Positions 14,621 to 51,109 of a stretch of 64,000 nt of DNA are shown piece after piece. Origin of the DNA: Antiquaquibacter metalliresistens. GTDB taxonomy: Bacteria; Actinomycetota; Actinomycetes; Actinomycetales; Microbacteriaceae. How positions within the stretch are numbered: the stretch's first letter is position 1; every line of letters starts with the position of its first letter. The translations under genes and the position numbers were made by a program. The DNA is taken from positions 1 through 64,000 of the forward strand of contig NZ_JARGEM010000007.1 in the NCBI RefSeq assembly GCF_029211225.1, written 5' to 3'. Below the pieces are notes generated by a model. That model had not been told where the DNA came from and did no database searches. It was given only the letters and a program-made list of their open reading frames with translations.

Positions 14621-14651
14621 CAACGCACAAGTCTGTCATCGATCTCGCGGG

Positions 14652-14657
14652 TACGAT
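14652..14657 (+). promoter_or_regulatory. Candidate -10 element of the Sua5-wecA unit
   Basis: TACGAT ends 9 nt before the ATG at 14667, so the transcript leader would be only a few bases. No clear -35 hexamer. Low-confidence motif call. Confidence 0.3.
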
Positions 14658-14666
14658 GGTCAGGCC

Positions 14667-32835: not shown

Positions 32836-33234
32836 TCACGGCCCACCGCGGACGAGTCGTCCGCACGAGTAGATGAAGTCGAATCCGTATCGGATGAAGC
32901 AGTAGTCCAGCGTTGCGGGGTCGACGATGTGCACCTCGACGGATGCATCCTCACCGATACCGGCCACGAGATGTCCGTGCGGGGTCATCGCGGCATGCAC
33001 CGGTTCGGTCGCCTCGGTGCCGCCGACGGCGAAGGTGAGGTCGCCGTCGAAGACCGTGCCGTCGTCAGCCGACGTGGTGACCACCATCTCGACGATCCCA
33101 TTGCCCTCGTCGTCGGCGGCGCCGGTCCACGCCCCCACGAGCTCCAGCTCGGCGTGGCCGACCGGCGGGGCGGCTGTGCAAGCAGTCAGCGCGAGGGTGG
33201 TGACCGCGAGCACCGCGATCGGGCGCTCGATCAT
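32836..33234 (-). CDS. Small putative lipoprotein
   Basis: A 132-residue protein with signal peptide and lipobox LALTAC, so the mature part is anchored outside the membrane. The remainder is beta-rich with two cysteines near the C terminus (DYCFIRYGFDFIYSCG) that may pair. No family recognised. It starts four bases after the CMD gene on the same strand and may be the last gene of the leftward operon. Confidence 0.7.
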   Translation of the reverse strand: MIERPIAVLAVTTLALTACTAAPPVGHAELELVGAWTGAADDEGNGIVEMVVTTSADDGTVFDGDLTFAVGGTEATEPVHAAMTPHGHLVAGIGEDASVEVHIVDPATLDYCFIRYGFDFIYSCGRLVRGGP

Positions 33235-33238
33235 CTGC

Positions 33239-33991
33239 TCATGCTTCCGGCGCGAGTTCTCGAAGGATCGCGGCGCCCACCGTGACCGTATTGATACCGA
33301 TCAGGCTCGCGATCTCCATCACCTCGAGAATCTCATGCACGCTCGCGCCGTAGCCGAGCGCGTTCTCGATGTGCAACTTCAGGCCCACGCGGTAGAGGTG
33401 CGTCGACGAGGTGTCGAACGCAATGTAGATGAACTCGCGCATCTTCGGTGAGAGCGAGCCGTGGCGCCAGGGATGCGACGAGAAGGCGGTGTAGGCCTCG
33501 AACAGCGCGGGGTCCAGCTCCAGCATCTCGTCCCAGGTCGCGTTCCAGTACCCGCGGTCGCGGGTGAACTCCGCCTTGATGCGCTCCTGCTCGGCGTCGA
33601 GCGGTGCCGGCGCTGTACGGATGCCCCGTTCGCCGAGCACCTCGACGAGCACCGGCACTCCGAGATTCATCGCATGGATGCCGAGTGTGGCCGTGCACTC
33701 GAGCACCTCCATGATCTCGGCGCGCGATGCTCCGGCGGCGAGAGCAGCCTCGATGTGACGTCGCACGCCGGGCGCATGGAGGTTGGTCGTGGCAGCATCC
33801 ACGGTGAGAGCGACGAACGCCTGCGCCTTGGCGTCGAGGTGACGCTGACGTCGAGGCACCGACGCGAACCCGGTATAGGTTGCGAGGAACTCAGGATCGA
33901 TCTCGAGGATGCTCTGCCAGCCGTCATCCCAGGTTGCCTGGGAACGCTCGAACTCGTCCTTGATCTCCTGCTGGCGGGGGGTGAGCGGCAT
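33239..33991 (-). CDS. Double-domain carboxymuconolactone decarboxylase-like protein (left copy)
   Basis: 250 residues made of two related AhpD/CMD-fold domains (about 1-120 and 130-250). Each carries the core pattern H-(x)n-HIExAL..GAS..EI.EVxE (TTNLHAPGVRRHIEAALAAG and STHLYRVGLKLHIENALGYG). The CxxC pair of AhpD peroxidases is absent, so a decarboxylase/hydrolase-like or binding role is more likely. A close paralogue lies at 44904-45671. It follows the lactonase-like gene in the leftward operon. Confidence 0.8.
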   Translation of the reverse strand: MPLTPRQQEIKDEFERSQATWDDGWQSILEIDPEFLATYTGFASVPRRQRHLDAKAQAFVALTVDAATTNLHAPGVRRHIEAALAAGASRAEIMEVLECTATLGIHAMNLGVPVLVEVLGERGIRTAPAPLDAEQERIKAEFTRDRGYWNATWDEMLELDPALFEAYTAFSSHPWRHGSLSPKMREFIYIAFDTSSTHLYRVGLKLHIENALGYGASVHEILEVMEIASLIGINTVTVGAAILRELAPEA

Positions 33992-34000
33992 CGACTCGCC

Positions 34001-34798
34001 TCAGGCCAGGACGGTGGCGATCTCGCCGGCTGCCCCGGGCGCTGCCGGGAAGCGCTCGCGGGTGCGTCCGTCGTGACCGGGCACGACGGTGGCGCCGGTC
34101 TGCTTGGCGAGCGCCGTGATGAAGGCGAGTCCGGCCTTCATCTCATCGAGATCGGTGAAGGCGAAGAAGGGCCACTCGTGGTCGACCTGCTCATAGAAGT
34201 GAGCGGCGTCGACACTGAGGATGATGCCGCCCGACGCGGTGTCGATGCGGGTGAGCAGTTCGCCGGGGCAGTGGCCGCCGATCGGGTAGACGGTGATGCC
34301 GGGGTAGACCTCGGTCTCCTCGTCAATGAGGATCAGCCGGCCCTCCTCTTCGGCACGGTGTACCGGGGCGAGGTCGTCGACAGTGGAGAACTCGCCCTCC
34401 AACTGGCCCGCCGCCTCCTTGCCGAACCAGTAGTCGCGCTCGGCTCGGCCGGAGACCACCTTCGCGTTCGTGAAGAGACCCAAGTACCCGATGTGGTCGT
34501 AGTGGTAGTGGCTCGTGATCACCATGTCCACGTCCGCGGGATCGATACCGAGGATCTCCAACGCCTTCGGCGTCGGCGTCACGCTGATCTCGCCGAGCCA
34601 GTCGTGCTTCGGGATGTCGTACCCGGTGTCGACGAGGATGATCTGCTCGCCGTCGCGAACCACCCAGAAGTTGTAGTCCATGTCCAGGTCCCCATCGGGA
34701 AGTCCGTACTGGGTGTAGTCGTGGAACACGTCGGCCTTGCGCACGACCCGCTCACCGTACTTCACAGACCAGACCGAGAGCCCGCGTGCATCGGACAT
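34001..34798 (-). CDS. N-acyl homoserine lactonase-like metallo-beta-lactamase-fold hydrolase (left copy)
   Basis: A 265-residue metallo-hydrolase. The dinuclear metal motif HYHYDH spans H97-H102; further ligands are His in GGHCPGE and Asp in ILSVDAAHF, with a late His in VVPGHDGR. This is the arrangement of the AiiA/AttM lactonase group, which opens lactone rings. ATG 34798 follows AAGGAG. It is the first gene of the leftward operon, controlled by the palindrome at 34863. Confidence 0.83.
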   Translation of the reverse strand: MSDARGLSVWSVKYGERVVRKADVFHDYTQYGLPDGDLDMDYNFWVVRDGEQIILVDTGYDIPKHDWLGEISVTPTPKALEILGIDPADVDMVITSHYHYDHIGYLGLFTNAKVVSGRAERDYWFGKEAAGQLEGEFSTVDDLAPVHRAEEEGRLILIDEETEVYPGITVYPIGGHCPGELLTRIDTASGGIILSVDAAHFYEQVDHEWPFFAFTDLDEMKAGLAFITALAKQTGATVVPGHDGRTRERFPAAPGAAGEIATVLA

Positions 34799-34854
34799 AG
34801 AGAAACTCCTTCGTTTGCCTACTCCGGGTCCTGCTTCAGGAACCGATTGGCACG

Positions 34855-34884
34855 ACTATATGATTGTCGGACAATGCTGGTCAA
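34855..34884 (-). promoter_or_regulatory. Leftward promoter of the lactonase-CMD operon
   Basis: On the minus strand TTGACC (34884-34879), an 18-bp spacer and TATAGT (34860-34855) form a strong sigma-A promoter. The spacer is almost filled by the palindrome at 34863-34875, so a bound repressor would exclude RNA polymerase. Confidence 0.75.
34863..34875. promoter_or_regulatory. GntR-type operator 1
   Basis: ATTGTC-G-GACAAT is a perfect 13-bp palindrome. It fits the TNGTNNNACNA consensus of FadR/FCD-type GntR regulators, and such a regulator is encoded at 44113-44814. It sits between the -35 and -10 of the leftward promoter. Confidence 0.75.
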
Positions 34885-34921
34885 GCCGGGGTGCGATTCG
34901 GCCGGATTTACCCCGGATCGG

Positions 34922-34950
34922 TTGACACGGCGGGGGTTCGCGGGCACCAT
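34922..34950 (+). promoter_or_regulatory. Rightward promoter of the Liv-catabolic operon
   Basis: A consensus TTGACA (34922-34927), a 17-bp spacer and a weak CACCAT (34945-34950). Operator 2 starts nine bases downstream, over the expected transcription start. The -10 is poor, so this call rests on the -35 and the operator position. Confidence 0.5.
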
Positions 34951-34958
34951 GGTCCAAG

Positions 34959-34971
34959 ATTGTCCGACAAT
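34959..34971. promoter_or_regulatory. GntR-type operator 2
   Basis: ATTGTC-C-GACAAT differs from operator 1 only in the central base and lies 96 bp from it. It would cover the start of the rightward transcript. Two sites in one divergent region allow joint control, possibly with looping. Confidence 0.75.
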
Positions 34972-35058
34972 CAGACAGTAATTCAAAGCTAAGCACGACA
35001 CTCCCACTCACGCGGGACGGCGGTGAAGCCGCCCGCAGACAACAGCAAGGGGTTTGCA

Positions 35059-36243
35059 ATGAAGCGAATCATCCCAGTCGCCACCGCGATCGCGGCGGCG
35101 ACGGCGCTCACCCTCGCCGGCTGCGCCGGCGGCGGCGGAACATCCTCCGACGAGAAGATCATGATCGGCGGCATCGCCGGTACCACCGGTGCCTACGGTG
35201 CGGTCGGTATCGCTGTGATCAACGGCACGCAGATGGCGGTCGATGAGATCAACGAGGCCGGCGGCATCGATGGTCGTCAGATCGAGTTCGTCTGGGACGA
35301 CGACGCAGCCGATGCGACGAAGTCCTCGCAGCTCTTCCAGCAGTTCGTGAGCGACGGAGCCGTGGCGATCCTCGGTTCGCCCGACACGGGGCCGACCACG
35401 GCGGCACTCGGCGACCAGATGCAGATCCCGGTGCTCGGCGCCGTCGATGACGGCGGCCTCACCGTGTACCCGAACGGCCCGGACGAGCCGCCGTTCGCGT
35501 GGACCTTCAGCACGTCGCTCAACACCTTCGCGTGGGGCGGCAAGCTCGCCGAGTGGTCGATCGACAACTGCCCGAACGGTCTCGCGATGCTCCACGACCC
35601 GACCACCTACGGACTCGGCGGGCTCGCCGGGTTCGAGATGGTGTTCGAGGAGACTGGACACGACTTCGCCTACGTCGAGTCGATCACCGAGAACTGGGGC
35701 AGTGGTGCCACGGTCAACCTCGACGCCGAGATCCAGAAGATCGTGGACTCCGGTGCGAGTTGTGTCGAGGTCTGGCTCACCCCGGGCGACGAGGCCGCAT
35801 TCATGCAAGAGATCGCCTCCCTCGGCATCGACGACCTGATCGTGCTGGGCAACGACGTCACGAACGCCGACGCCACCTTCACCGACCTCGCCGGTCCGGA
35901 GGGCAACGGCATGATCTCCGCGCTGCTGACCTCCGATGTCTACCCGAACGATCGACTCCTCGAGTGGCAGCAGCAGTACCGCGACCTCTTCGACGGCCTC
36001 GAGCCGGGTCCGTTCGCCGAGCTCAGCTACGACGCCGTGTACATCCTGAAGCAGGTCATCGAGGATGCAGACGGCAAGACCGACCCGGAATCGATCCGCG
36101 CCGGCCTCAACGAGCTGACCGACTTCGAGGGCCTCACGGGCAGCCTCTCCTTCACGGAGCAGATCCACACGACCATCAACAAGGAGCAGCTCACGATGGT
36201 GCAGTGGAACTACGAGACCAAGAAGTGGGAGCCGATCGAGTAG
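35059..36243 (+). CDS. ABC importer substrate-binding lipoprotein (LivK/Peripla_BP_6 type)
   Basis: 394 residues with signal peptide and lipobox LTLAGC, then the two-lobed type I periplasmic-binding fold (GIAGTTGAYGAVGIAVINGT near the start of the mature part). This family binds branched-chain amino acids, aromatic acids, amides or urea; the ligand here is not predictable. ATG 35059 follows AAGGGG. It leads the rightward operon behind two GntR-type operators and is followed by a very strong hairpin before the permease genes. Confidence 0.88.
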   Translation: MKRIIPVATAIAAATALTLAGCAGGGGTSSDEKIMIGGIAGTTGAYGAVGIAVINGTQMAVDEINEAGGIDGRQIEFVWDDDAADATKSSQLFQQFVSDGAVAILGSPDTGPTTAALGDQMQIPVLGAVDDGGLTVYPNGPDEPPFAWTFSTSLNTFAWGGKLAEWSIDNCPNGLAMLHDPTTYGLGGLAGFEMVFEETGHDFAYVESITENWGSGATVNLDAEIQKIVDSGASCVEVWLTPGDEAAFMQEIASLGIDDLIVLGNDVTNADATFTDLAGPEGNGMISALLTSDVYPNDRLLEWQQQYRDLFDGLEPGPFAELSYDAVYILKQVIEDADGKTDPESIRAGLNELTDFEGLTGSLSFTEQIHTTINKEQLTMVQWNYETKKWEPIE

Positions 36244-36256
36244 CGGCACTCTTCAT

Positions 36257-36291
36257 GATCCTCGGCAGGGCGACGCGCCCTGCCGAGGATC
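36257..36291 (+). terminator. Strong hairpin after the binding-protein gene
   Basis: GATCCTCGGCAGGGCG (36257-36272) pairs perfectly with 36276-36291 around a three-base loop. Downstream is pyrimidine-rich without a T run. It probably lowers read-through or stabilises the binding-protein mRNA, so that the lipoprotein is made in excess over the permease. Confidence 0.65.
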
Positions 36292-36340
36292 CCCTCCCTC
36301 CCCGGGATTCCGGGCTCCCGAACCATCCGAAGAGGACTCG

Positions 36341-37252
36341 ATGCTCCAAGTGCTGCTCTCCGGCCTCGCGGTCGGCACCATCTACGGTCTCGTGGCGATG
36401 GCGTTCGCCGTCGTGTTCTACGTGACCAAGGTGATCAACTTTGCCACCGGCCAACTCCTCATGGTCTCCATCCTTCTGGCGGCTGGACTGGTCAAGGCAG
36501 GCGTGCCCGAATGGCTCGGGATCATCATCGCGCTGCTGGCCTCAACCGTGCTCGGCGTCGTGATCTACTTCATCGCCGTACGGCCGGTGCTCAAGTTCGA
36601 CCGATTCAGCTTTGCGTGGCTCGTGAGCACGCTCGGCATCGCGATCGTGATTCAGGCGACCTTCGCCATCATCTACGGCCCCGCATCGCAGCCCTTCCCG
36701 CGCGGCCTGCACCAGTATCCGGTGCACTTGCCCGGCGCCACTATCACCGTGCAGGAGATCCTCACCCTCGCGATCGGCGCGCTGGCGATCGTCGGCTGGG
36801 AGCTCCTGCGCCGCAAGACCCTTCTCGGCAAGCTCGGCATGGCGATCTCGACGGATCCCGAGATCGCCTCGACGGTCGGCGCGAACGTCACCGCGTTCGC
36901 GGTCGGCGCGTTCGCGGTCGGGGGATTCCTCGCCGGTCTCGCCGGCATCCTGGTCGGGCCCATCACGTACGGGAACCCATACCTCGGTGACACCTACGGC
37001 ATCTTCGGGTTCATCGCCCTGATGATCGGCGGTATCCAGCGCCCCGCCGCCGCGATGGGCGGGGGACTCATTCTCGGCGTGCTGTCGATCGCCGCAAACT
37101 CGTACATCGGTGCTCAGGCCTCGGACTGGTTCCCCTTCGTGCTGGTGCTCCTGGTACTGCTGCTCGCGCCCAACGGCGTCTTCGCCTCGGGCGACTCGCT
37201 GCGCAAGCTGTTCCGTCGTCGTCGCAGCTTCACGGTCGGAGGCCGGGCATGA
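36341..37252 (+). CDS. Branched-chain-type ABC permease, LivH-like
   Basis: A 303-residue inner-membrane permease with about eight hydrophobic segments. The N terminus LLSGLAVGTIYGLVAMAFAV and the GA-rich EAA-like loop are typical of LivH. ATG 36341 follows GAGGACTCG; the stop overlaps the next start (ATGA). Confidence 0.88.
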   Translation: MLQVLLSGLAVGTIYGLVAMAFAVVFYVTKVINFATGQLLMVSILLAAGLVKAGVPEWLGIIIALLASTVLGVVIYFIAVRPVLKFDRFSFAWLVSTLGIAIVIQATFAIIYGPASQPFPRGLHQYPVHLPGATITVQEILTLAIGALAIVGWELLRRKTLLGKLGMAISTDPEIASTVGANVTAFAVGAFAVGGFLAGLAGILVGPITYGNPYLGDTYGIFGFIALMIGGIQRPAAAMGGGLILGVLSIAANSYIGAQASDWFPFVLVLLVLLLAPNGVFASGDSLRKLFRRRRSFTVGGRA

Positions 37253-39069
37253 TCGCCGCACTGCAGAATCGCCGTTGGGTCGGCACCGTCATCCTTATCG
37301 CCGCATTCGTCGCGGCGACCTGGGGCGCGGCGACCGCGAACTTCGGGCTTCAGAGCATCGTGACCGTCACCGCCGTCTTCGTGGTGCTCGCGGTGAGCCT
37401 CGACCTGGTCGCCGGCGCCGTCGGACTGTACTCACTCGGACACGCGGGCCTGTTCGCCATCGGCGCCTACGGCACGACGTTGCTGAGCCGCAATCTCGAC
37501 CTCGATGTCTTCGTGCTCCTGCCGATCGTGATGCTCGGCGCGGGACTCGTGGGCGCCTTGCTCGGCGCGCTCTCGTTGCGGGTGAGCGGACTCTACTTCT
37601 CGATCACCACGTTCATCTTCACCATCATCGTGTACGTGCTGCTGAGCAACTCCTCGTGGACGATGGGGCTGCAGGGCCTACCGGGGCCGATCTTCCCGAA
37701 CTTCCCCGTCGACGTGCAGGATGTGCTGGGCCGCTCCGTGGTCTGGGCGGTGGCCGCCGTGGTCTTCATTGCGATCGTCATCGTGTGGAGCATCCGTGGT
37801 TCGGCCTTCTACCCCGTGCTGCTGGCCGTGCGCGACGCGGAGCCGTACGCGCGTGCGAACGGTGTTCGCACCTCGCTCGTCAAGGTCGGGATCTTCGCGC
37901 TCTCCGCCGGACTCGCGGGCATGGCCGGATGGGCCTTCTCCTTTCTCGTGTACCAGTCGCCGGGTCAGTTCGGGTGGGTGCAGTCGGTCAACCTCCTCGT
38001 GATGGTGATCATCGGCGGCATGAACACCCGGGTCGGCCCGATTCTCGGCGCCGTACTGGTCAGCATCTTCCCGTTCGTGGTGAAGATCGACCCGTTCCTG
38101 CAGGAAGTCGTCTTCGGTGCCGTGTTCGTCGCGGTCGTCGTGTTCTTCCCGCGTGGCATCACCGGACTCGTCGACCTCGCACGCCGGAAGATCCGCGCCG
38201 CGCTCGGCCGCGACCGCGGCGTGCCGTTGGAGTCGACGGTGGCGCCCGTGATCGAGCCCGTTCTCGCCGGATCGTCCGCGTCGACGCAGGTGCGCGGTGG
38301 CGACGTCGCACTCGCCGCACGGGGCATCGAGTTCAGCTACGTGCCCGGGGTGCCCGTGCTCCGCGAGATCGACATGGTCGTGCGGCGGGGAACGATCCAC
38401 GGTTTGATCGGGCCGAACGGCTCCGGCAAATCGACCCTGGTCAACCTGATCTCCGGCGAGTTGCGTCCCATCGCGGGAGAGATCGAGCTCAACGGAGATC
38501 GCGTCGAACGGCTCTCGGCGCCGTCGCGCCCGTCGCACGGCCTCATGCGGACCTTCCAGAGCGCCGTGCTCGTGCGCGAGTTGTCGATCCTCGAGAACAC
38601 GACCGTCGGTCTGTACAGCACCGTCAAGCGCATCGCCGCGCGTTCGGTGATCTGGCCGCTGCTGCACGGCGCGCGACGCGACTCGCGTCAGATGCGCGCC
38701 ACGTCGGCGACGGCCCTCGAGTCCGTCGGACTGGAGAAGTCCTGGCACTCGGCTGCCGTGGGCGATGTACCGCACGGTATCGAGCAGTTGACCCAGCTGG
38801 CCGCGTCGATCGTCTCCGAACCGTCGGTGCTCGTGCTCGATGAGCCCCTCGCCGGCCTCTCCGGCGCCGAAGTCAGTCACGTCGCGCAGATCCTGCATCG
38901 ATTGCGCGAGCGGGGTGTGACCGTCATCGTGATCGAACACCAGACGCGATTCATCTTCGACAACTGCGACGATGTCACGGTGCTCGCCGCGGGAGAGCTC
39001 GTCACGAGCGGTCCCGCGGCCGAGGTCAGAGAGAACGCGCGCGTACGAGAGGTCTACCTGGGGCAATGA
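37249..39069 (+). CDS. Fused LivM-like permease and LivG-like ATPase
   Basis: 606 residues combine a LivM permease (about 1-315, including SLDLVAGAVGLYSLGHAGLF) with a LivG ATPase (about 340-606). Walker A GPNGSGKSTLVN begins near residue 388, Walker B is VLVLDEPLAGLSG, and the switch His is in VIVIEHQTRF. The signature region (VPHGIEQLTQLAASI) departs from LSGGQ and even from the usual LivG form. Coupled at both ends by 4-nt overlaps. Confidence 0.87.
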   Translation: MIAALQNRRWVGTVILIAAFVAATWGAATANFGLQSIVTVTAVFVVLAVSLDLVAGAVGLYSLGHAGLFAIGAYGTTLLSRNLDLDVFVLLPIVMLGAGLVGALLGALSLRVSGLYFSITTFIFTIIVYVLLSNSSWTMGLQGLPGPIFPNFPVDVQDVLGRSVVWAVAAVVFIAIVIVWSIRGSAFYPVLLAVRDAEPYARANGVRTSLVKVGIFALSAGLAGMAGWAFSFLVYQSPGQFGWVQSVNLLVMVIIGGMNTRVGPILGAVLVSIFPFVVKIDPFLQEVVFGAVFVAVVVFFPRGITGLVDLARRKIRAALGRDRGVPLESTVAPVIEPVLAGSSASTQVRGGDVALAARGIEFSYVPGVPVLREIDMVVRRGTIHGLIGPNGSGKSTLVNLISGELRPIAGEIELNGDRVERLSAPSRPSHGLMRTFQSAVLVRELSILENTTVGLYSTVKRIAARSVIWPLLHGARRDSRQMRATSATALESVGLEKSWHSAAVGDVPHGIEQLTQLAASIVSEPSVLVLDEPLAGLSGAEVSHVAQILHRLRERGVTVIVIEHQTRFIFDNCDDVTVLAAGELVTSGPAAEVRENARVREVYLGQ

Positions 39070-39791
39070 GCGACATCACCGATACCCTCGTAGTGGACGG
39101 GCTGAGCGGCGGATACGACCGCTTCGACGTCATTCACGACATCTCCTTCCGGGTCGCCAAAGGCGAAGCGGTCGCGCTGCTCGGACCGAACGGTGCGGGC
39201 AAGACCACCGTGCTGCGCGCGATCATGGGGCTGCTCAAGCACCGCCGCGGCACGATCGCGATCGACGGCACCGATGTGATCGGTCTTCCGCCGCACCGAA
39301 TCTCCCGCGGGCTTGCGTCGATGGTGCCCGAAGGCCGGCGTCTCTTCGTCGGGCAGTCGGTCGAGGACAACCTCAGGCTCGGCGGGATACGTCTGCGCCA
39401 TGACCGAGCCCGCACAGACGAGTTGTTGCAGAGCGTCTTCGACCTCTTCCCGGTCGTCGAGCGACACCGCGCGCGCGAGGCGACCGCGCTGAGCGGAGGC
39501 GAGCAGCAGATGGTCGCGATCGGACGGATGATGATGGGCGATCCATCGCTCATGCTGCTCGATGAGCCATCGCTCGGCCTCGCGCCGCTGGCGATCGCCG
39601 ACCTCACTGTGGCATTGCAGCGTCTGCGCGAGCGCAACAGCTCGATTCTGCTGGTCGAGCAGCGCGTCGATATCGCACTCGAGGTGTGCGACCGCATCTA
39701 CGTGCTGACCGGGGGCAGGATCGTTGACGAGGGTCGTGCCTCGGATATCGGAGCCGAGGGGCGGGCACTCATCGATGCCTACCTGGGATGA
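39066..39791 (+). CDS. Branched-chain-type ABC ATPase, LivF-like
   Basis: A 241-residue ATPase, partner of the LivG domain. Walker A is GPNGAGKTTVLRA, the signature is LSGGEQQMVAIGRMM, Walker B is LMLLDEPSLGLAP, and SILLVEQRVD is the LivF-type switch region. ATG 39066 overlaps the previous stop. It completes a full importer of four proteins-equivalents in three genes. Confidence 0.9.
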   Translation: MSDITDTLVVDGLSGGYDRFDVIHDISFRVAKGEAVALLGPNGAGKTTVLRAIMGLLKHRRGTIAIDGTDVIGLPPHRISRGLASMVPEGRRLFVGQSVEDNLRLGGIRLRHDRARTDELLQSVFDLFPVVERHRAREATALSGGEQQMVAIGRMMMGDPSLMLLDEPSLGLAPLAIADLTVALQRLRERNSSILLVEQRVDIALEVCDRIYVLTGGRIVDEGRASDIGAEGRALIDAYLG

Positions 39792-39798
39792 GGGTCAG

Positions 39799-40623
39799 AT
39801 GACGGATGCAGCCGACGACCGCTACGAAGTGGTGATCATCAAGTACGGAACGCGCGAGACGGTGCGCAGCGAGGTCTACCTGAACTACGGGCTGTACCAC
39901 GAGCCGGACGGCCCGATCGGCATGGACTACTTCGTGTGGGTCATCCGCAATCGGGCGCGCACGATCCTCGTGGACACCGGCTTCTCGCCGACCGGCGGTG
40001 CCCGGCGCAGTCGGACCACGCTCGTGACGCCGCCCGACGCGTGGTCGGCGCTCGGCATCCACCCGGAATCGTCGCCGTTGATCGTGCTCACGCACGCGCA
40101 CTACGACCACACCGGCAACCTCGCGCACTTTCCGAACTCCCAGATCGTCATGGCGGAGGCGGAGTTGGACTTCTGGGCCGGGCCGCAGGCGCACCGCGTG
40201 CTGTTCCACCATTCCGTCGAGGACGAGGATCTGGAACTGCTGCGGCGGGCGCGTGCCGCGGGGCGGGTGATCACCTTCGAAGACGACTACGCGCCGGCAC
40301 CGGGTGTTCGAGTGCTGCGCATCGGGGGGCACACGCCGGGGCAGAGCGTCGTCGTCGTACAGACGCACGACGGGCCGGTGCTGCTCGCTTCGGATGCCGT
40401 GCACTATTTCGAGGAGCTCGATCGTGCGATGCCGTTCATGTCGGTCGCGGACCTCGTGGCCATGTACGCAGGATTCGATCGCATCGCCGACATGCTCGCA
40501 GACGGGTCGGTCGTCGCGATGGTCCCGGGGCACGATCCGCAGACCCTGAGCCGATTCACGCCGCTGAGCGACGCGCTGCTCGGTCTCGCGGCGACCGTCG
40601 GTACCACCGGGGTGTCGGCATGA
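39799..40623 (+). CDS. N-acyl homoserine lactonase-like metallo-beta-lactamase-fold hydrolase (right copy)
   Basis: 274 residues, related to the gene at 34001-34798 over the N terminus (KYGTRETVRSEVYLNYGLYH against KYGERVVRKADVFHDYTQYG) and the fold. The metal motif HAHYDH is H99-H104, followed by GGHTPGQS, ASDAVHYFEE and VPGHD. A lactonase or related hydrolase is likely; the substrate is unknown. ATG 39799 is taken; ATG 39775 would overlap livF. Confidence 0.83.
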   Translation: MTDAADDRYEVVIIKYGTRETVRSEVYLNYGLYHEPDGPIGMDYFVWVIRNRARTILVDTGFSPTGGARRSRTTLVTPPDAWSALGIHPESSPLIVLTHAHYDHTGNLAHFPNSQIVMAEAELDFWAGPQAHRVLFHHSVEDEDLELLRRARAAGRVITFEDDYAPAPGVRVLRIGGHTPGQSVVVVQTHDGPVLLASDAVHYFEELDRAMPFMSVADLVAMYAGFDRIADMLADGSVVAMVPGHDPQTLSRFTPLSDALLGLAATVGTTGVSA

Positions 40624-41477
40624 GCGGGCGCTTCGAGGGCAAGGTGGCTCTCGTGACGGGTGCCGCGAGCGGACTCGGTCGTGCCTCGGCGCAGCGGCTC
40701 TCGAGCGAGGGCGCGAGCGTGGTGCTCATCGACCTCGACGGCGACAAGGCGCGGGATGCCGCAGCGGAACTCGCCGGCGAGACGCTCGTGGTGCAGGCTG
40801 ACGTCTCGGACGAGTCGGCCATCGATGCGGCGGTCGCCAGCGCGGTGGAGCGGTTCGGTCGGGTCGACCACCACCATCTCAATGCCGGCATCTTCGGCAG
40901 CTTCGTGCCGCTGCCCGATCTGAGCGTGCAGGAGTTCGAACGGGTCATGGCCGTCAACGTCCGTGGCGCGTTTCTCGGCACGCGCGCCGCGTTCCGTCAG
41001 TTCAGCGCCCAGGGCACCCCTGGCTCCATCGTCGTCACGGCCTCGATTGCGAGCCTGACGGGTGCAGCCGATCTGCTGGCATACCACACGTCGAAGCACG
41101 CGGTGGTGGGGCTCGTGCACGCGGCGGCGGTCTACGGTGGCCCGCTCGGCATTCGAGTCAACGCGGTCGCGCCGGGGATCGTGCCGACCGAGCTCTTCGC
41201 GGCGGCGGCGACCGCATCCGGCGGCAAGAACGACATGGAGCACCGCGCATCGACGACGCCGATGCGCCGCGCGGGCACCACCGAGGAGATCGCCGGCGTC
41301 GCCGCGTTCCTGCTCAGCGACGACGCGGGCTACGTCACGGGTCAGATCGTGAGCGCGGACGGCGGAGCGACGATAGTCAACACCGTGCGCCCCTCCGGCG
41401 GCGCAGGGGCGTGGGACACCCGGGCGGTCGACGACCCGATGTATCGCGGAAGCGGGAACTGGAGCACGCAGCAATGA
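40620..41477 (+). CDS. Short-chain dehydrogenase/reductase
   Basis: A 285-residue SDR. The cofactor motif is TGAASGLG, the acidic residue in LIDLDGDKA suggests NAD preference, the usual NNAG reads LNAG, and the catalytic YHTSK is Y155/K159. The C-terminal tail of about 35 residues beyond the fold (VDDPMYRGSGNWSTQQ) is unusual. It would oxidise a hydroxyl group released in the pathway. Overlaps its neighbours by 4 nt on both sides. Confidence 0.87.
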   Translation: MSGRFEGKVALVTGAASGLGRASAQRLSSEGASVVLIDLDGDKARDAAAELAGETLVVQADVSDESAIDAAVASAVERFGRVDHHHLNAGIFGSFVPLPDLSVQEFERVMAVNVRGAFLGTRAAFRQFSAQGTPGSIVVTASIASLTGAADLLAYHTSKHAVVGLVHAAAVYGGPLGIRVNAVAPGIVPTELFAAAATASGGKNDMEHRASTTPMRRAGTTEEIAGVAAFLLSDDAGYVTGQIVSADGGATIVNTVRPSGGAGAWDTRAVDDPMYRGSGNWSTQQ

Positions 41478-42376
41478 GCACATCGATCGGGTTCATCGGA
41501 CTCGGCAACATGGGCGGCAGGATGACGCGTCGCATCGTCGACGCGGGCATCGAGGTGCTCGGATTCGACGCGAGAGCCGAGAGCATCGCGGCGGCCGGCG
41601 CGGTCGCCGCGTCGAGCGCGGCCGAGGTCGCGGAACACAGCGACATCGTGTTCCTCTCATTGCCGGACAGCCACGTTGTCGAGGCGGTGGTACTCGGCGA
41701 CGGTGGGGTCGCCGCCCACGTGCGACCGGGAAGCATCGTCGTCGACCTCAGCACCTCGTCTCCGGCATCGACTCGCCGGATCCACGAGGAGCTCACCGGT
41801 CGCGAAGCCTCGTATCTCGATGCCGGGATCTCGGGCGGTGCCGCGGCCGCGGAGGCGGGCACGCTCACGCTGATGGTCGGCGGCGAGGCAGAGGCGCTCG
41901 CGACGGTGCAGCCCTACCTGGCGCCGTTCGCCAGCAAGGTGTTCCACGTCGGCGCCTCGGGTGCCGGGCACATCACCAAGCTGCTGAACAACTTCCTCAA
42001 TGCGATAGCGCTCTCGGCGACCGCGGAGGTCATGGTCGCGGGCAAGAAGGCGGGGCTGGACTTGGCGGTGCTGCTCGATGTGCTCAACGCGAGCTCGGGC
42101 GTCAACTTCGCCACGATCAACCGTTTCCCGAAGATCATTGCCGGCGACTACCTCAAGGGCGGTCTGACCAACACTCTGATGCTCAAGGATGTCGTGCTCT
42201 ACACCGAGCTCATCGCCGAGTTGGGGGTCGCGGGCTTGAACGCGCCAGGACCGCTCGCCGCGTTCGGGTTGGCTCGCCAGCTCGGTTATGCGGACGAGAT
42301 CAGCAACACCGTGGTCGACGCGATCGGAGACATCTCCGGCGGCGTGCGGCTGCACGAGTCGGGAGGGGATCGATGA
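41474..42376 (+). CDS. Beta-hydroxyacid dehydrogenase, 3-hydroxyisobutyrate dehydrogenase-like (copy 1)
   Basis: A 300-residue NAD(P)-dependent enzyme. The Rossmann motif is GFIGLGNMGGRM, the substrate loop DAGISGGAAAAEAGTL, and the catalytic Lys lies in GAGHITKLLNNFLN. The family also includes tartronate semialdehyde reductases and gamma-hydroxybutyrate dehydrogenases. It oxidises a short hydroxyacid to a semialdehyde or the reverse. Coupled to the SDR gene (ATGA). Confidence 0.86.
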   Translation: MSTSIGFIGLGNMGGRMTRRIVDAGIEVLGFDARAESIAAAGAVAASSAAEVAEHSDIVFLSLPDSHVVEAVVLGDGGVAAHVRPGSIVVDLSTSSPASTRRIHEELTGREASYLDAGISGGAAAAEAGTLTLMVGGEAEALATVQPYLAPFASKVFHVGASGAGHITKLLNNFLNAIALSATAEVMVAGKKAGLDLAVLLDVLNASSGVNFATINRFPKIIAGDYLKGGLTNTLMLKDVVLYTELIAELGVAGLNAPGPLAAFGLARQLGYADEISNTVVDAIGDISGGVRLHESGGDR

Positions 42377-42780
42377 TCATCCGCCACGCCAACACCGAGC
42401 CGCAACCACCGGGGAAGGCATCGCAGTTCACCGGAAAAGCCGTCGGAGACGCGATCCTGCCGGCAACGGACGGGGTGGTGATCAACACCGTCACGTTCGA
42501 GCCGGGAGCGCGCACCCACTGGCACGCTCACGAGCGAGGGCAGCTCCTGTTCGTCGTCGCCGGCTACGGCCTCATCTGCACGGCGGGCCAGGCGCCCGCA
42601 CCGTTGCGCGCCGGGGATTGGGTGTGGATCCCACCGGGGGAGCGCCACTGGCACGGCGCCTCGCCGACGACCTTCTTGACCCACACCGCGATCTCGTTGG
42701 GTGCCACGCAGTGGGCCGACGAGGTCTCGGCCGACGACTACGCCTCAACCCCTCACCCATTCGAAGGACAACCAGAATGA
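42373..42780 (+). CDS. Single-domain cupin protein
   Basis: A 135-residue cupin. Motif 1 is GARTHWHAHERGQLLFVVAG with the metal-binding His-x-His and Glu-like pattern, and motif 2 is PPGERHWHGA. It resembles the cupins that accompany PcaC-like proteins in catabolic operons. It may be an isomerase or a metal-dependent enzyme; no assigned reaction. Overlaps on both sides (ATGA). Confidence 0.83.
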   Translation: MIIRHANTEPQPPGKASQFTGKAVGDAILPATDGVVINTVTFEPGARTHWHAHERGQLLFVVAGYGLICTAGQAPAPLRAGDWVWIPPGERHWHGASPTTFLTHTAISLGATQWADEVSADDYASTPHPFEGQPE

Positions 42781-43172
42781 CCAGCGAAAACACCCACAGC
42801 GAGACCTTCGAGCAGGGGATGCGAGTGCGCCGAGAGGTGCTCGGCGACGCTCACGTCGACCGCTCGCTCTCCCAGGTGAGCGACTTCTCTCGCCCGATCC
42901 AGGAGCTCGTCACCGAGTACTGCTGGGGTGAGGTCTGGTCGCGCGAAGGTCTGCCGAGAACGACGCGCAGCCTCATCAACATCGCCATGCTGACCGCGCT
43001 CAATCGTGGCCACGAACTCGGCGTGCACGTGCGCGGCGCGATCAACAACGGCGTGACCGAGCAGGAGATCCAGGAGGTGCTGATCCAGACCGCGATCTAC
43101 GTGGGCGTGCCAGCATCCCTCGAGTCGTTCCGCATCGCCGAGGGTGTGCTCAAAGAGATGCGCGGCGCATGA
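42777..43172 (+). CDS. 4-Carboxymuconolactone decarboxylase-like protein
   Basis: A 131-residue single-domain CMD-family protein, close to PcaC over its length (VDRSLSQVSDFSRPIQELVT, GHELGVHVRGAINNGVT, EVLIQTAIYVGVPASLESFR). PcaC decarboxylates a gamma-lactone in the protocatechuate pathway, but no other pca gene is nearby, so the substrate is more likely another lactone or hydroxyacid. ATG 42777. Confidence 0.83.
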   Translation: MTSENTHSETFEQGMRVRREVLGDAHVDRSLSQVSDFSRPIQELVTEYCWGEVWSREGLPRTTRSLINIAMLTALNRGHELGVHVRGAINNGVTEQEIQEVLIQTAIYVGVPASLESFRIAEGVLKEMRGA

Positions 43173-44050
43173 GTGAGATCGCCGCGATCGGGTTCGTCGG
43201 ACTCGGCAACATGGGGATGCCGATCGTCAAGCGTCTGCTTGCCGCCGGATATCAGGTCACCGGGTTCGATGTGGCACCCGAAGCGCGCGCGGCGCTCGCC
43301 GCCGCCGGTGGGCGGACCGTCGAGACGCTCGGCGAGGTCGTCGAAGGCGCCGACGCGCTGATCCTCATGCTGCCGGACTCCACCGTCGTAGGTCGCGTGA
43401 TGTCGGACCCGGCCCTGCGTGCCGGCCTGCGGCCGGGGCTCCTCGTCGTCGACATGGGTTCCTCGGAGCCGGTGAAGACGCGCGCGCTCGCCGCCGATCT
43501 CGACGCGCTCGGGGTCGGGCTCGTCGACGCACCGGTGTCCGGAGGTGTCTCGGGCGCGGTGCAGGGTGCGCTGACGGTCATGGTCGGCGGAGGATCGGAG
43601 GCGGTCTCGCGGGTCACACCCGTGCTGGAACACCTCGGCAGGGTGCGCCATGCCGGACCGGTGGGTTCCGGGCATGCGATCAAGGCGCTGAACAATCTCA
43701 TCTCGGCGACGCACCTGTGGATCACGTCGGAAGCGATGCTCGCGGGGCAGCGGTTCGGCCTCCAGCCCGAGGTGATGCTCGAGATCATCAACGGCTCAAG
43801 CGGTCGAAGCGGTTCGAGCGAGAACAAGTGGCCGAACTTCATCCTGCCCGGCACGTTCGACTCTGGATTCGGACTGCGGCTGATGCTCAAGGACATGCGC
43901 ACCGCCACCGACCTCGCCGCGCAGCTCGGCATTCCGATCGAGCTCGGCGACGCTGCGGTGAACCGCTGGAGCGAGGCCGCCCAGGCCCTGCCGCCGACGG
44001 CGGATCACACTGAAGTGGCGAAATGGCTCGCCGAGGAGCGGGAGGTTTAG
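43169..44050 (+). CDS. Beta-hydroxyacid dehydrogenase, 3-hydroxyisobutyrate dehydrogenase-like (copy 2)
   Basis: 293 residues, paralogous to copy 1: GFVGLGNMGMPIVKRL, DAPVSGGVSGAVQGALT, and GSGHAIKALNNLIS with the catalytic Lys. Sequence identity to copy 1 looks moderate, so the two probably act on different intermediates or with different cofactors. Ends the tightly overlapped stretch of the operon; gntR follows after 62 bp. Confidence 0.86.
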   Translation: MSEIAAIGFVGLGNMGMPIVKRLLAAGYQVTGFDVAPEARAALAAAGGRTVETLGEVVEGADALILMLPDSTVVGRVMSDPALRAGLRPGLLVVDMGSSEPVKTRALAADLDALGVGLVDAPVSGGVSGAVQGALTVMVGGGSEAVSRVTPVLEHLGRVRHAGPVGSGHAIKALNNLISATHLWITSEAMLAGQRFGLQPEVMLEIINGSSGRSGSSENKWPNFILPGTFDSGFGLRLMLKDMRTATDLAAQLGIPIELGDAAVNRWSEAAQALPPTADHTEVAKWLAEEREV

Positions 44051-44112
44051 GATGACGACATAGATTCCCGATCGTATGACGGGGATACATCACCGATCCG
44101 CGGAGCGAGAAC

Positions 44113-44814
44113 ATGGCACGACCGAACTCACTCGCCGAATCCTGGACGGCGGAACCCGTCGGAAGGATCGCTGCGCCGCTTCGCGAGCAGGTGATCACCG
44201 CGCTGCGCCAGGCCATCCTCGACTTCAAGTTGAAGCCGGGGCAGCGGTTGGTCGAGCGCGAGCTCATCGAGCAGCTCGGGGTCTCGCGCACGACGATCCG
44301 GGAGGCGCTCCGTGAACTCACCTCGGAAGGCCTGGTGACCGTGGTGCCGCAGAAGGGCGCCGTGGTCGCGACACCGACACTGGACGACGCGATCGACCTC
44401 TACGAGGTGCGAGCGGCACTGGAATCCCTCGTCGTACAACGCTTCGTCGAGCGCGCCAGCAATGCGCAAGTCGAGCGGTTGCGGGCGGCCGTGGAGCGTT
44501 TCCACGATGCCACCATTCGAACCGCGGACATCCGGCAGATCCTCGCGGCCAAAGATCTCTTCTACGACGTGCTCATCGAGGGCGCCGCGAGTGCAGCGCT
44601 CCAGCAGCTGCTGGAGGGCATCCAGGCTCGCGTTCAGGTTCTTCGGGCTACCTCGCTCTCAGAGGACGGGAGGACGTTCGCCGCGGTTCGTGAGCTGCGC
44701 GCCGTCGTGGATGCGATCGAGGCGCGAGACGCCCGACTCGCCGCGCGCCTGACCACCGAACACATCCGTGCGGCCTCGAAGACCGCCCTGCTGCACATGC
44801 GGTCGGGCGAATAG
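44113..44814 (+). CDS. GntR family regulator, FCD subgroup
   Basis: A 233-residue one-component regulator. The winged helix-turn-helix (about residues 20-85) contains RLVERELIEQLGVSRTTIRE and GLVTVVPQKGAVVATP. The helical FCD effector domain follows. Of the usual metal ligands, FH reads FY (KDLFYDV) and the second His is Leu (VRELRAVVDAIE); only the last His (TTEHIRAA) is kept. It probably binds the ATTGTCNGACAAT operators at 34863 and 34959 and controls both operons. Confidence 0.88.
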   Translation: MARPNSLAESWTAEPVGRIAAPLREQVITALRQAILDFKLKPGQRLVERELIEQLGVSRTTIREALRELTSEGLVTVVPQKGAVVATPTLDDAIDLYEVRAALESLVVQRFVERASNAQVERLRAAVERFHDATIRTADIRQILAAKDLFYDVLIEGAASAALQQLLEGIQARVQVLRATSLSEDGRTFAAVRELRAVVDAIEARDARLAARLTTEHIRAASKTALLHMRSGE

Positions 44815-44849
44815 CGAAACCTGCACTCCCCCTTTTCCTTCTCTTCCAC

Positions 44850-44867
44850 CCCGCGCAGGCGCGCGGG
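44850..44867. terminator. Hairpin between gntR and the second CMD gene
   Basis: CCCGCGC (44850-44856) pairs with GCGCGGG (44861-44867) around a four-base loop, preceded by a pyrimidine-rich stretch. It could be a partial terminator that lowers expression of the last two genes, or a processing site. Confidence 0.4.
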
Positions 44868-44903
44868 TCGATCGATCGCGCGCCCCACGAAACGGACACT
44901 TCG

Positions 44904-45671
44904 ATGACTCTCACCGAACGCCAACAGCAGATCAAGGACGCCTACATCGCCGCACAAGGAGAGTGGGGTGAGCCATGGGAGACGGTGCTCGCGGTCGATC
45001 CGGAGTTCGTCGCCGCCTACCTCGGCCTTTACCAGGTGCCGTGGGAGAAGAACCAGTTGAGCGACAAGTTCAAGGAGCTCTGCTACATCTCGATCAATGC
45101 CGCGGCGACGCACCTGCACGTGCCCGGCATCCGGCCTCACATCCGCCGGGCATTGGAGTTCGGTGCAACCGCGCACGAGATCATCGAGGTGCTCGAGCTG
45201 GCATCCACGCTCGGCATCCATGCGATGAACATCGGGGTTCCGCTATTGGTCGAGGTGCTGGAGGAGCGCGGCCGCACCGAGGCCGAGCCCCTCAACGAGT
45301 ATCAGGAGACGCTCAAGAAGCAGTTCACGCAGACGCGCGGCTACTGGCACGATTTCTGGAACGAGATGCTGGAGCTCGATCCGGAGATGTTCGCCGCCTA
45401 CACCGAGTTCTCGTCGGTGCCCTGGCGCACCGGCACGCTCACTCCCGCGGAGAAGGAGCTCATCTACATCTCCTACGACATCGCGGCGACGCACCTGTAC
45501 GTGCCGGGGACGAAGCTGCACATCCGGAACGCGCTCAACCACGGCGCCACGGTCGGAGAGATCCTCGAGGTGATGGAGATCGCGAGCGTGATCGGCATTC
45601 ATGCCGTGACGACGGCCGTACCCATCCTCGCCGAAGAGTTGGCTGCGCTCGACCGGAACGTCAACTCGTGA
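44904..45671 (+). CDS. Double-domain carboxymuconolactone decarboxylase-like protein (right copy)
   Basis: 255 residues in two CMD-type repeats, collinear with the left copy (33239-33991): both start with a Gln-rich TxRQQxIKD helix and keep ELDPExFxAYxxFSSxPWR. Core sequences are THLHVPGIRPHIRRALEFGA and THLYVPGTKLHIRNALNHGA. No CxxC pair is present. It is coupled to the aldehyde dehydrogenase by GTGA, which suggests joint action late in the pathway. Confidence 0.82.
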   Translation: MTLTERQQQIKDAYIAAQGEWGEPWETVLAVDPEFVAAYLGLYQVPWEKNQLSDKFKELCYISINAAATHLHVPGIRPHIRRALEFGATAHEIIEVLELASTLGIHAMNIGVPLLVEVLEERGRTEAEPLNEYQETLKKQFTQTRGYWHDFWNEMLELDPEMFAAYTEFSSVPWRTGTLTPAEKELIYISYDIAATHLYVPGTKLHIRNALNHGATVGEILEVMEIASVIGIHAVTTAVPILAEELAALDRNVNS

Positions 45672-47143
45672 GTACCCGGGAAGCCGAGCAGTCCGTGCTC
45701 GCCGCCGTGCCTCGCGGCCTGATGCTCGGTGGTGTCTGGACCGCCGCGTCCGCGGGCGCCGAGTTCGAAGTGCTCGATCCCTCGTCGGCCGAGCCGATCG
45801 CACTCGTCGCGGATGCAACACACGACGACGCGCTCGCAGCGATGAGCATCGCCGCCGAGCACCAGGCCCAATGGGCGGCGACCGCACCTCGTGTGCGAGG
45901 CGAGATCCTGCGCAGAGCCTACGAACTCATGACGGAGCGCATCGAACCGCTCGCCCTGCTGATGACCCTCGAGATGGGCAAGCCGCTCTCGGAGTCGCGT
46001 GCCGAGGTGGCGTACGCCGCCGACTTCTTCCGGTGGTTCGCCGAGGAGGCGGTACGGATGACCGGCACCTGGTCAATCGCGCCGGACGGGGCATCCCGCA
46101 TCTGGACCATGCGGCAACCGGTAGGCCCGTGCCTGCTCGTGACGCCGTGGAACTTCCCGCTCGCGATGGGCACCCGCAAGCTCGGACCCGCGCTCGCCGC
46201 GGGGTGCACCGCGATCGTGAAGCCCGCGAAACAGACGCCGCTGTCGATGCTCGCGCTCGCCGGCATCCTGATGGAGGCCGGGCTGCCGAAGGGGGTGCTC
46301 TCTGTGCTGCCGACGACCGATTCGAGCGGGATCGTCGCCCTGCTCATGAGGGACCCGCGGTTGCGCAAGCTCTCGTTCACCGGTTCCACCGAGGTCGGGC
46401 AGGCACTTGTGCGCCAGTCCGCGGACCGCATGCTGCGTCTGTCGATGGAGCTCGGCGGCAATGGTCCGTTCGTCGTCTTCGAGGACGCAGACCTCGACCG
46501 CGCCGTGGACGAGGCGATGCGCGCGAAGCTCCGCAACAACGGCGAGGCCTGCACGGCCGCCAACCGCTTCTACGTGCACGATTCGGTGCGGGAGACCTTC
46601 GTCACCAAGTTGAGCGCACGGTTCGCGCAGATCCGTGTGGGGCGCGGCACCGACGAAGGCACGACGCTGGGCCCCCTGATCGACCGGAACGCCGTGGAGA
46701 AGGTCGCCGATCTGGTAGCCGCAGCGACGAGCAATGGAGCCGTGGTCGCGTACTCCGGTGAGGTTCCGCAGAATGCCGGCTACTACTCGCCGCCGATGAT
46801 CGTCGATCGGGTGCCCGCCGACTCCCGACTGGTCACCGAGGAGATCTTCGGCCCGGTGGCACCGGTCGTCGGTTTCGAGACCGAGGAGCAGGTACTCGGC
46901 TGGGTGAATGCCTCCGACTACGGCCTCGCCTCCTACGTCTTCACGACCGACCTGAACCGGGCTTTGCGCATGGCGGAACGCCTGGAGGCCGGGATGATCG
47001 GGCTCAACCGAGGCGTGCTCTCAAACGTCGCGGCGCCGTTCGGCGGCGTCAAGATGAGCGGGTACGGCAGGGAGGGCGGCGCCGAGGGCATCGACGAGTA
47101 CGTCGAGACCAAGTACGTCGCGGTCGACGTGAATGCCCTGTGA
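45668..47143 (+). CDS. Aldehyde dehydrogenase, succinate-semialdehyde dehydrogenase-like
   Basis: A 491-residue NAD(P)-dependent aldehyde dehydrogenase. The catalytic Cys is C295 in NNGEACTAANRF, the general base Glu in SMELGGNGP, and the cofactor Asn/Lys in TPWNFPLAMG and VKPAKQTPLS. The C-terminal MSGYGREGG is typical of GabD-like enzymes, which oxidise succinic semialdehyde. As last gene of the operon it could complete conversion of the imported compound to a TCA-cycle acid. Confidence 0.88.
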   Translation: MSTREAEQSVLAAVPRGLMLGGVWTAASAGAEFEVLDPSSAEPIALVADATHDDALAAMSIAAEHQAQWAATAPRVRGEILRRAYELMTERIEPLALLMTLEMGKPLSESRAEVAYAADFFRWFAEEAVRMTGTWSIAPDGASRIWTMRQPVGPCLLVTPWNFPLAMGTRKLGPALAAGCTAIVKPAKQTPLSMLALAGILMEAGLPKGVLSVLPTTDSSGIVALLMRDPRLRKLSFTGSTEVGQALVRQSADRMLRLSMELGGNGPFVVFEDADLDRAVDEAMRAKLRNNGEACTAANRFYVHDSVRETFVTKLSARFAQIRVGRGTDEGTTLGPLIDRNAVEKVADLVAAATSNGAVVAYSGEVPQNAGYYSPPMIVDRVPADSRLVTEEIFGPVAPVVGFETEEQVLGWVNASDYGLASYVFTTDLNRALRMAERLEAGMIGLNRGVLSNVAAPFGGVKMSGYGREGGAEGIDEYVETKYVAVDVNAL

Positions 47144-50599: not shown

Positions 50600-50607
50600 G
50601 ATCTTCC

Positions 50608-51090
50608 TTACCTGGTTCCCCAGTTGTAGAACTGCTTGTGCAGTCGCAGATAGACGAAGGTCTCGGTGGACTGCACCCCGTCGATCCCGCGGATCTGCTT
50701 GTTGAGCAACTCGATGAGGTCCTCGTCGTTCTCGCACACGACCTCCGCGAGGATGTCGAAACTGCCCGCGGTGAGCACGACATAGTCGATCTCCGGCAGC
50801 GCGCTCAACCGGTCGGCCACCGTCGTGGTGTCGCCGGCGACCCGGATGCCGATCATCGCCTGGCGGTAGAAGCCCAGTTGCATCGGATCGGTCACCGCCA
50901 CCACCTGCATCACGCCGGAGTCGGTGAGCTTCTGCACGCGCTGGCGCACGGCGGCCTCGCTGAGCCCCACCGCCTTGCCGATCTCCGCGTACGACCGGCG
51001 ACCGTCCCGCTGGAGCTGCTCGATGATCTTCTTGGAGACCTCGTCCAGCTGCACCGGTTTGGCGCCGACGGGGCGCGGGGAGGCACTCAT
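50608..51090 (-). CDS. Lrp/AsnC family transcriptional regulator
   Basis: 160 residues: an N-terminal helix-turn-helix (RRSYAEIGKAVGLSEAAVRQ) and a C-terminal RAM ligand-binding domain (IDYVVLTAGSFDILAEVVCE). Such regulators sense an amino acid or amine. It is divergent from the dehydrogenase gene and eight bases upstream of the aminotransferase, so it likely controls both directions through the 111-bp gap. Confidence 0.9.
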   Translation of the reverse strand: MSASPRPVGAKPVQLDEVSKKIIEQLQRDGRRSYAEIGKAVGLSEAAVRQRVQKLTDSGVMQVVAVTDPMQLGFYRQAMIGIRVAGDTTTVADRLSALPEIDYVVLTAGSFDILAEVVCENDEDLIELLNKQIRGIDGVQSTETFVYLRLHKQFYNWGTR

Positions 51091-51109
51091 GCATCGATTC
51101 TGTCAGTGT

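Follow-up and report, generated by a model that had tools for sequence, protein, structure and literature searches.

Two divergent operons at the locus

We analyzed a gene cluster of Antiquaquibacter metalliresistens (Microbacteriaceae) located at positions 32836-47143 of a 64,000-nucleotide stretch of its genome (contig NZ_JARGEM010000007.1, positions 1 to 64,000), hereafter called the window. The initial annotation had read this cluster as an undescribed system for the uptake and catabolism of a lactone or hydroxy acid under GntR control, made up of a Liv-type importer, two lactonase-like metallo-hydrolases, a short-chain dehydrogenase/reductase (SDR), two beta-hydroxyacid dehydrogenases, a cupin, a PcaC-like protein, two double-domain carboxymuconolactone decarboxylase (CMD) proteins and an aldehyde dehydrogenase (ALDH). 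All of these genes were found in the region, every frame being open, and their families were matched by Pfam, which bears out the gene content of both operons (Table 1). The minus-strand operon reads MBL1 (metallo-beta-lactamase fold), CMDd1 and, last, a small lipoprotein-like gene. The plus-strand operon reads substrate-binding protein (SBP), LivH, LivM-LivG fusion, LivF, MBL2, SDR, HIB1 (3-hydroxyisobutyrate dehydrogenase or HIBADH type), cupin, PcaC, HIB2, GntR, CMDd2 and ALDH.

The plus operon had been taken as one unit on account of tight overlaps. These are indeed present, measuring 4 nt at eight junctions (LivH/LivMG, LivMG/LivF, MBL2/SDR, SDR/HIB1, HIB1/cupin, cupin/PcaC, PcaC/HIB2 and CMDd2/ALDH; coordinates and start codons were checked), while the gap between LivF and MBL2 measures 7 nt (39792-39798) instead of the 8 nt given before. 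Similarly, a full Liv-type importer is present, but LivM and LivG are not separate genes, as they form a single 606-aa protein, and the lipoprotein-like gene is also attached to the minus operon. The SBP likely starts at the ATG at 35059. The GntR gene is separated from HIB2 by 62 nt and from CMDd2 by 89 nt. A search for known RNA control returned no Rfam family at gathering score between 30000 and 50000.

Table 1. Genes and predicted operators of the locus, with window positions.
Feature	Position	Strand	Family match or remark
Lipoprotein-like gene, 132 aa	32836..33234	-	without Pfam match; relatives 60% in locus L035, 69% in locus L049
CMDd1, double CMD protein	33239..33991	-	PF02627, two stretches
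MBL1, lactonase-like metallo-hydrolase	34001..34798	-	PF00753; zinc set invariant, 9 sequences
Predicted GntR operator 1, ATTGTCGGACAAT	34863..34875	.	palindrome search
Predicted GntR operator 2, ATTGTCCGACAAT	34959..34971	.	palindrome search
SBP of Liv-type importer	35059..36243	+	PF13458
LivH permease	36341..37252	+	PF02653
LivM-LivG fusion	37249..39069	+	PF02653 + PF00005
LivF ATPase	39066..39791	+	PF00005
MBL2, lactonase-like metallo-hydrolase	39799..40623	+	PF00753; zinc set invariant, 15 sequences
SDR	40620..41477	+	PF13561
HIB1, HIBADH-type dehydrogenase	41474..42376	+	PF03446, PF14833
Cupin	42373..42780	+	PF07883; H51, H53, Q57, H92 invariant, 7 sequences
PcaC-type CMD protein	42777..43172	+	TIGR02425, 167.3 vs cut-off 155.7
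HIB2, HIBADH-type dehydrogenase	43169..44050	+	PF03446, PF14833
GntR/FCD regulator	44113..44814	+	PF00392, PF07729
CMDd2, double CMD protein	44904..45671	+	PF02627, two stretches
ALDH, GTG start at 45668	45668..47143	+	PF00171

The core genes form a conserved block

We searched 249 genomes of the family, the genome under study included, for HIB1 (E 1e-90, with the best nine or fewer candidates scored per genome) and inspected about 20 kb around each match, one contig offering only 10 kb; the identity thresholds were of our own choice. HIB1 was present in 20 of the 249 genomes. MBL2, PcaC and HIB2 stood beside it in 20/20 loci, SDR in 19/20, and cupin, GntR and CMDd in 17/20 each, so that the core is kept as a block in other Microbacteriaceae, the very check that the initial annotation had called for. 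By these counts the core is a real block, with a grouping of genes that exceeds chance. The remaining genes were less constant near HIB1: MBL1 was found in 9/20, ALDH in 6/20, and SBP and LivH in 5/20. MBL1 at 74% identity or more occurred in 9 of the 249 family genomes, and all eight of the others had an MBL2-type match nearby on the same contig.

The block is patchy across genomes, since HIB1 was missing from all of the four further congeneric genomes searched (E 1e-90) and was absent from 393 other genomes of a class-wide sample (E 1e-70; six or so candidates scored per listed genome). We considered horizontal transfer in view of the four same-genus genomes, but discarded it, as the block has a G+C content of 0.668 and the 4-kb blocks of the window range from 0.657 to 0.711.

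More distant relatives were collected from GTDB, the best 80 of 497 loci being kept. Locus L050 was taken as the same contig as L154 and left out of the counts and of the operator site scan, and L045 and L156, which lack HIB1, were left out of the linkage counts. Among the 80 loci kept, 19 match HIB1 at 59-86% (L049-L066 and L070), and the rest were retrieved through matches of 33-45%. Represented among these 19 loci are Rhodoglobus, Herbiconiux, Tersicoccus, Acrocarpospora, Streptomyces, Micromonospora, Pseudomonas, Paraburkholderia, Caballeronia, Bordetella and [Erwinia] mediterraneensis. In the eight distinct actinobacterial loci (without L050), MBL2, SDR, cupin, PcaC and HIB2 were each found in 7/8, CMDd in 4/8 and GntR in 3/8. 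Fourteen other loci, mostly proteobacterial and some of them short, held the cupin (14/14), MBL2 (12/14, at 31% identity or more), PcaC (11/14), HIB2, GntR and ALDH (9/14 each) and CMDd (8/14). Rearranged cores thus occur in Proteobacteria. In L055 (Pseudomonas, 13730-15124) and L054 (Caballeronia, 13745-15088), a protein of 447-464 aa is encoded between an SDR and a HIB2-type gene; by Pfam the Pseudomonas protein belongs to MmgE/PrpD, and its Caballeronia counterpart was assigned by likeness only.

Clusters on pHS1 of Sodalis praecaptivus and pACRY02 of Acidiphilium cryptum likewise bring together a lactonase-family protein, HIB1, a cupin, CMD proteins and GntR. However, they differ from the window in that a major facilitator superfamily (MFS) carrier replaces the Liv importer, a NIPSNAP protein is present and the gene order is another. 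The annotation shown for these two clusters names no pathway.

Pairwise distances of six core proteins were correlated, with r of 0.53-0.79 (18-23 actinobacterial loci) and 0.49-0.90 (25-32 loci), and none of 500 permutations attained any of the 30 observed values. L038, which has broken frames, was not used for these distances or for the palindrome discovery described below.

A predicted operator lies between the two operons

The regulator carries a GntR helix-turn-helix domain (PF00392) and an FCD domain (PF07729), which places it in the FadR type. FadR-type GntR regulators bind a palindrome of the TNGTNNNACNA type. A palindrome search in the intergenic gaps of 22 actinobacterial loci, this locus included, returned a single outstanding palindrome, ATTGTC-N-GACAAT (ATTGTCNGACAAT, FadR-type), with perfect arms in five gaps as against at most two in 20 base shuffles. 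A predicted site fitting the FadR-type pattern is present at the promoters. The 3.07-Mb genome holds two exact copies, both in the divergent gap between MBL1 and SBP (34799-35058), and 100 shuffles of the window gave none. The sole other near match in the genome, with one mismatch, lies on another contig (G000:C1:57199-57211). A promoter-like site for the minus operon (34884-34855) has operator 1 in its spacer, although two such sites against a shuffle mean of 1.0 are not above chance, and operator 2 lies about 37 bases past a TTGACA at 34922-34927.

We then scanned 42 loci for sites with up to two mismatches and obtained 61. By our count, a block gene follows within 250 bp in 38 cases, and one site falls inside such a gene. 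Three proteobacterial loci independent of the discovery (L058, L129 and L131) carry exact sites at a distance of 75-89 bp ahead of the PcaC-type gene; in Paraburkholderia and Acidiphilium, neither of which had been used for discovery, the cluster is preceded by exact copies. Because exact copies lie in the divergent gap and ahead of the cluster in these two genera, GntR likely controls both operons, in keeping with the earlier claim of GntR control, although the site is missing at some core loci.

The importer is tied to the block but exchangeable

Relatives of the SBP (E 1e-60, with the best seven or fewer candidates scored per genome) were found in five of the 249 family genomes, each time at the block. 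Since the SBP was found only at the block while other loci carry other importers, the Liv importer is an accessory (5/20 family loci) that is tied to the block yet exchangeable. Near the block, some loci carry an importer of the ribose type, its SBP and its ATPase being assigned by Pfam, some an MFS carrier (its nearest model, a metabolite:H+ symporter, scoring under the cut-off), and some polyamine-type or sulfonate-type importers, recognized by eye.

With an SBP, two permease domains and two ATPase domains, the window system has the parts of Liv/HAAT ABC importers. It differs from them by the LivM-LivG fusion and by its SBP, which reaches 51.4 bits against the 477 of the leucine-type model NF011933. 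With a score so far below the cut-off, we rejected an SBP of the branched-chain amino acid type. When the SBP is aligned with 4gnr, a leucine-type protein, one of its invariant Asp residues takes the place of a Thr; if this Thr is the carboxylate ligand, there is a weak hint that the two proteins differ in their ligands. A structure prediction of the SBP from six sequences had a mean pLDDT of 55.9.

Enzyme families and comparison with known pathways

Both MBL proteins keep HxHxDH plus a later H, D and H, invariant in 9 MBL1 and 15 MBL2 sequences. This is the motif and zinc set of the N-acyl homoserine lactone (AHL) lactonase-like MBL fold, and the enzyme families make a lactone plausible as the substrate. 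HIB1 and HIB2 have an Asp at the end of beta-2, which favors NAD+. The genome has six CMD matches, five of them held by PcaC and the two double-CMD proteins. The invariant cupin residues H51, H53, Q57 and H92 correspond to those of cupin mandelonitrile lyases. The cupin-type (R)-mandelonitrile lyase model NF049940 is also the best and sole NCBIfam model of the cupin, but its score of 123.4 bits is under the cut-off of 140, and the block gives no hint of nitriles.

The initial annotation had likened the locus to gamma-butyrolactone degradation in Agrobacterium. What is shared is the logic of a lactonase, a hydroxyacid dehydrogenase and a semialdehyde dehydrogenase under a repressor: BlcABC (AttKLM) degrades gamma-butyrolactone via gamma-hydroxybutyrate (GHB) and succinic semialdehyde (SSA) under BlcR (PMC5924552). 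The window differs by its additional CMD, cupin, SDR and importer genes, its HIBADH-type dehydrogenases and its GntR/FCD regulator. BlcR is an IclR family repressor, and the domains of the window regulator (PF00392 and PF07729) are not of this type. MBL1 and MBL2 score 59.0 and 54.1 bits against the 390 of the AttM-type lactonase model NF045700, and ALDH reaches 529.4 against 646.35 (TIGR01780) and 478.7 against 828 (PRK11241) with the succinic semialdehyde dehydrogenase (SSADH) models. As lactonase, SSADH and regulator all departed from it, we rejected membership in this system, and kinship with the Agrobacterium route is not supported. A similar route with non-homologous parts, in which an MBL protein would open the ring, a HIBADH-type enzyme would form succinic semialdehyde and ALDH would yield succinate, seems improbable. 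Its enzyme types are all present, SSADH being the best ALDH model, but besides the unreached AttM and SSADH cut-offs, it leaves PcaC, cupin, SDR and the second dehydrogenase without a task, and ALDH occurs in only 6/20 family loci.

We also considered that the lactonases might inactivate signal or toxic lactones, the other genes clearing the products. The best NCBIfam models of both MBL proteins are indeed quorum-quenching lactonases, and annotated relatives are labeled as N-acyl homoserine lactonase family. However, the AHL lactonase models (AiiA, AidB, AhlS and YtnP) and 4-pyridoxolactonase stayed at or below 63.3 bits, their cut-offs being 325-475, which led us to reject membership among AHL lactonases. 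Moreover, the block families include no enzyme for acyl chains, a CoA ligase for instance, and an importer with several dehydrogenases suits carbon use better. We therefore regard quorum quenching or detoxification as very unlikely.

A route for an acid derived from an aromatic compound or a heterocycle, with PcaC acting on a carboxylactone, an MBL protein as enol-lactonase and ring attack by upper-pathway enzymes encoded elsewhere, appears rather unlikely, though less easily dismissed. PcaC passes TIGR02425, as expected of the beta-ketoadipate pathway, and two other core-bearing genomes have genes for flavin-type enzymes, hydantoinase and amidohydrolase in the vicinity of predicted operators. 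On the other hand, the window block holds no ring-attacking enzyme and, unlike the beta-ketoadipate pathway, the genome (97.7% complete) has no match to intradiol dioxygenase PF00775, a search that was positive in 4 of 14 controls. For this reason PcaC hardly serves protocatechuate, a reading that we rejected.

Different neighborhoods around a shared core

Two core-bearing genomes, both from one genus group, have exact sites ahead of a Peripla_BP_4 importer adjoining a hydantoinase A/B pair, as well as ahead of an amidohydrolase adjoining acyl-CoA-dehydrogenase-like proteins, which we read as flavin monooxygenases. A site with two mismatches precedes the hydantoinase pair in L170, and in L153, from another genome, the interval between an MFS carrier and an Ldh_2 dehydrogenase contains two exact sites. 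Upstream of the core in Tersicoccus we found a flavin monooxygenase-like protein, DUF6282 proteins and a putative cyclase; an operator site was not found at this locus. These neighborhoods look like different upper pathways feeding one lower pathway.

Further genes were observed around the core. In L170 (11598-12743), a flavin reductase domain is fused to FCD, the domain with which GntR regulators bind their ligands; the protein may be a reductase that the pathway substrate activates. L043 (10411-17372) and L044 (10603-14956) each have two large FAD-type proteins adjoining the core; Pfam assigns one of the L043 pair to the GMC oxidoreductases, and the others were recognized by eye. In the window, 47865-51094 adjoins the block with open reading frames resembling, by eye, an FAD-dependent oxidoreductase and an aminotransferase, perhaps of a polyamine or gamma-aminobutyrate (GABA) route, and a comparable FAD open reading frame adjoins the block in L049.

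A candidate lower pathway acting on a lactone or beta-hydroxy acid

The reading that we favor is an undescribed lower pathway that acts on a lactone or beta-hydroxy acid and to which exchangeable importers and upper pathways are joined. The Liv importer would take up a small oxygenated compound, and an MBL hydrolase would open a lactone or a comparable ester. With NAD+, SDR and the two HIBADH-type enzymes may then convert hydroxyls beta to a carboxyl into oxo groups, and PcaC and the double-CMD proteins, together with the cupin, may decarboxylate or tautomerize the resulting beta-oxo acids, leaving ALDH to yield an acid for central metabolism. In the simplest order, lactone opening would be followed by beta-hydroxyl oxidation, decarboxylation and aldehyde oxidation. 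GntR, bound to the two operators in the divergent gap, would block both operons until released by a pathway compound. Since the same core is joined elsewhere to other importers and oxidases, it probably represents a common lower pathway for several parent compounds.

Several observations weigh against this interpretation. MBL-fold, CMD and HIBADH-type proteins serve many functions. SDR is missing in 13 of the 14 mostly proteobacterial loci at the 50% threshold, and the correlated distances could arise through vertical descent alone. Exact operator sites occur in 9 of the 20 core-bearing family genomes against 16 of the 229 others (Fisher p 2e-5), a comparison that is partly circular, as the discovery loci included our own; they are absent in the other 11, and in one of the nine (G205) some 16-18 kb separate them from HIB1. 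No site within two mismatches was seen in L051, although its GntR reaches 70% identity; L052, L060, L064 and L065 have neither a site nor a GntR at our threshold, and L053, L057, L062 and L076 have no operator site.

Taking both sides together, we lean slightly toward a repressor-controlled uptake and catabolic locus built around a shared lower pathway. A broader proposal can be put forward only tentatively, namely that an undescribed central funnel pathway across Actinobacteria and Proteobacteria is made up of MBL2, SDR, HIB1, cupin, PcaC, HIB2, CMDd and GntR, and that one common lactone or beta-hydroxy-acid intermediate would reach it from upper pathways unrelated to each other (flavin monooxygenase-like, GMC oxidase, hydantoinase, amidohydrolase) and equipped with several kinds of importers. 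In the literature searched we found no description of this gene set, in agreement with the initial view of the system as undescribed; this is a weak negative, most subscription journals being outside the scope of the search.

If correct, our interpretation would mean that distant bacterial groups have in common a catabolic route without a named substrate, whose families (CMD, cupin, lactonase-like MBL and HIBADH) often carry only generic annotation. The predicted operator and an SBP seen only at the block render the question of the substrate directly testable.

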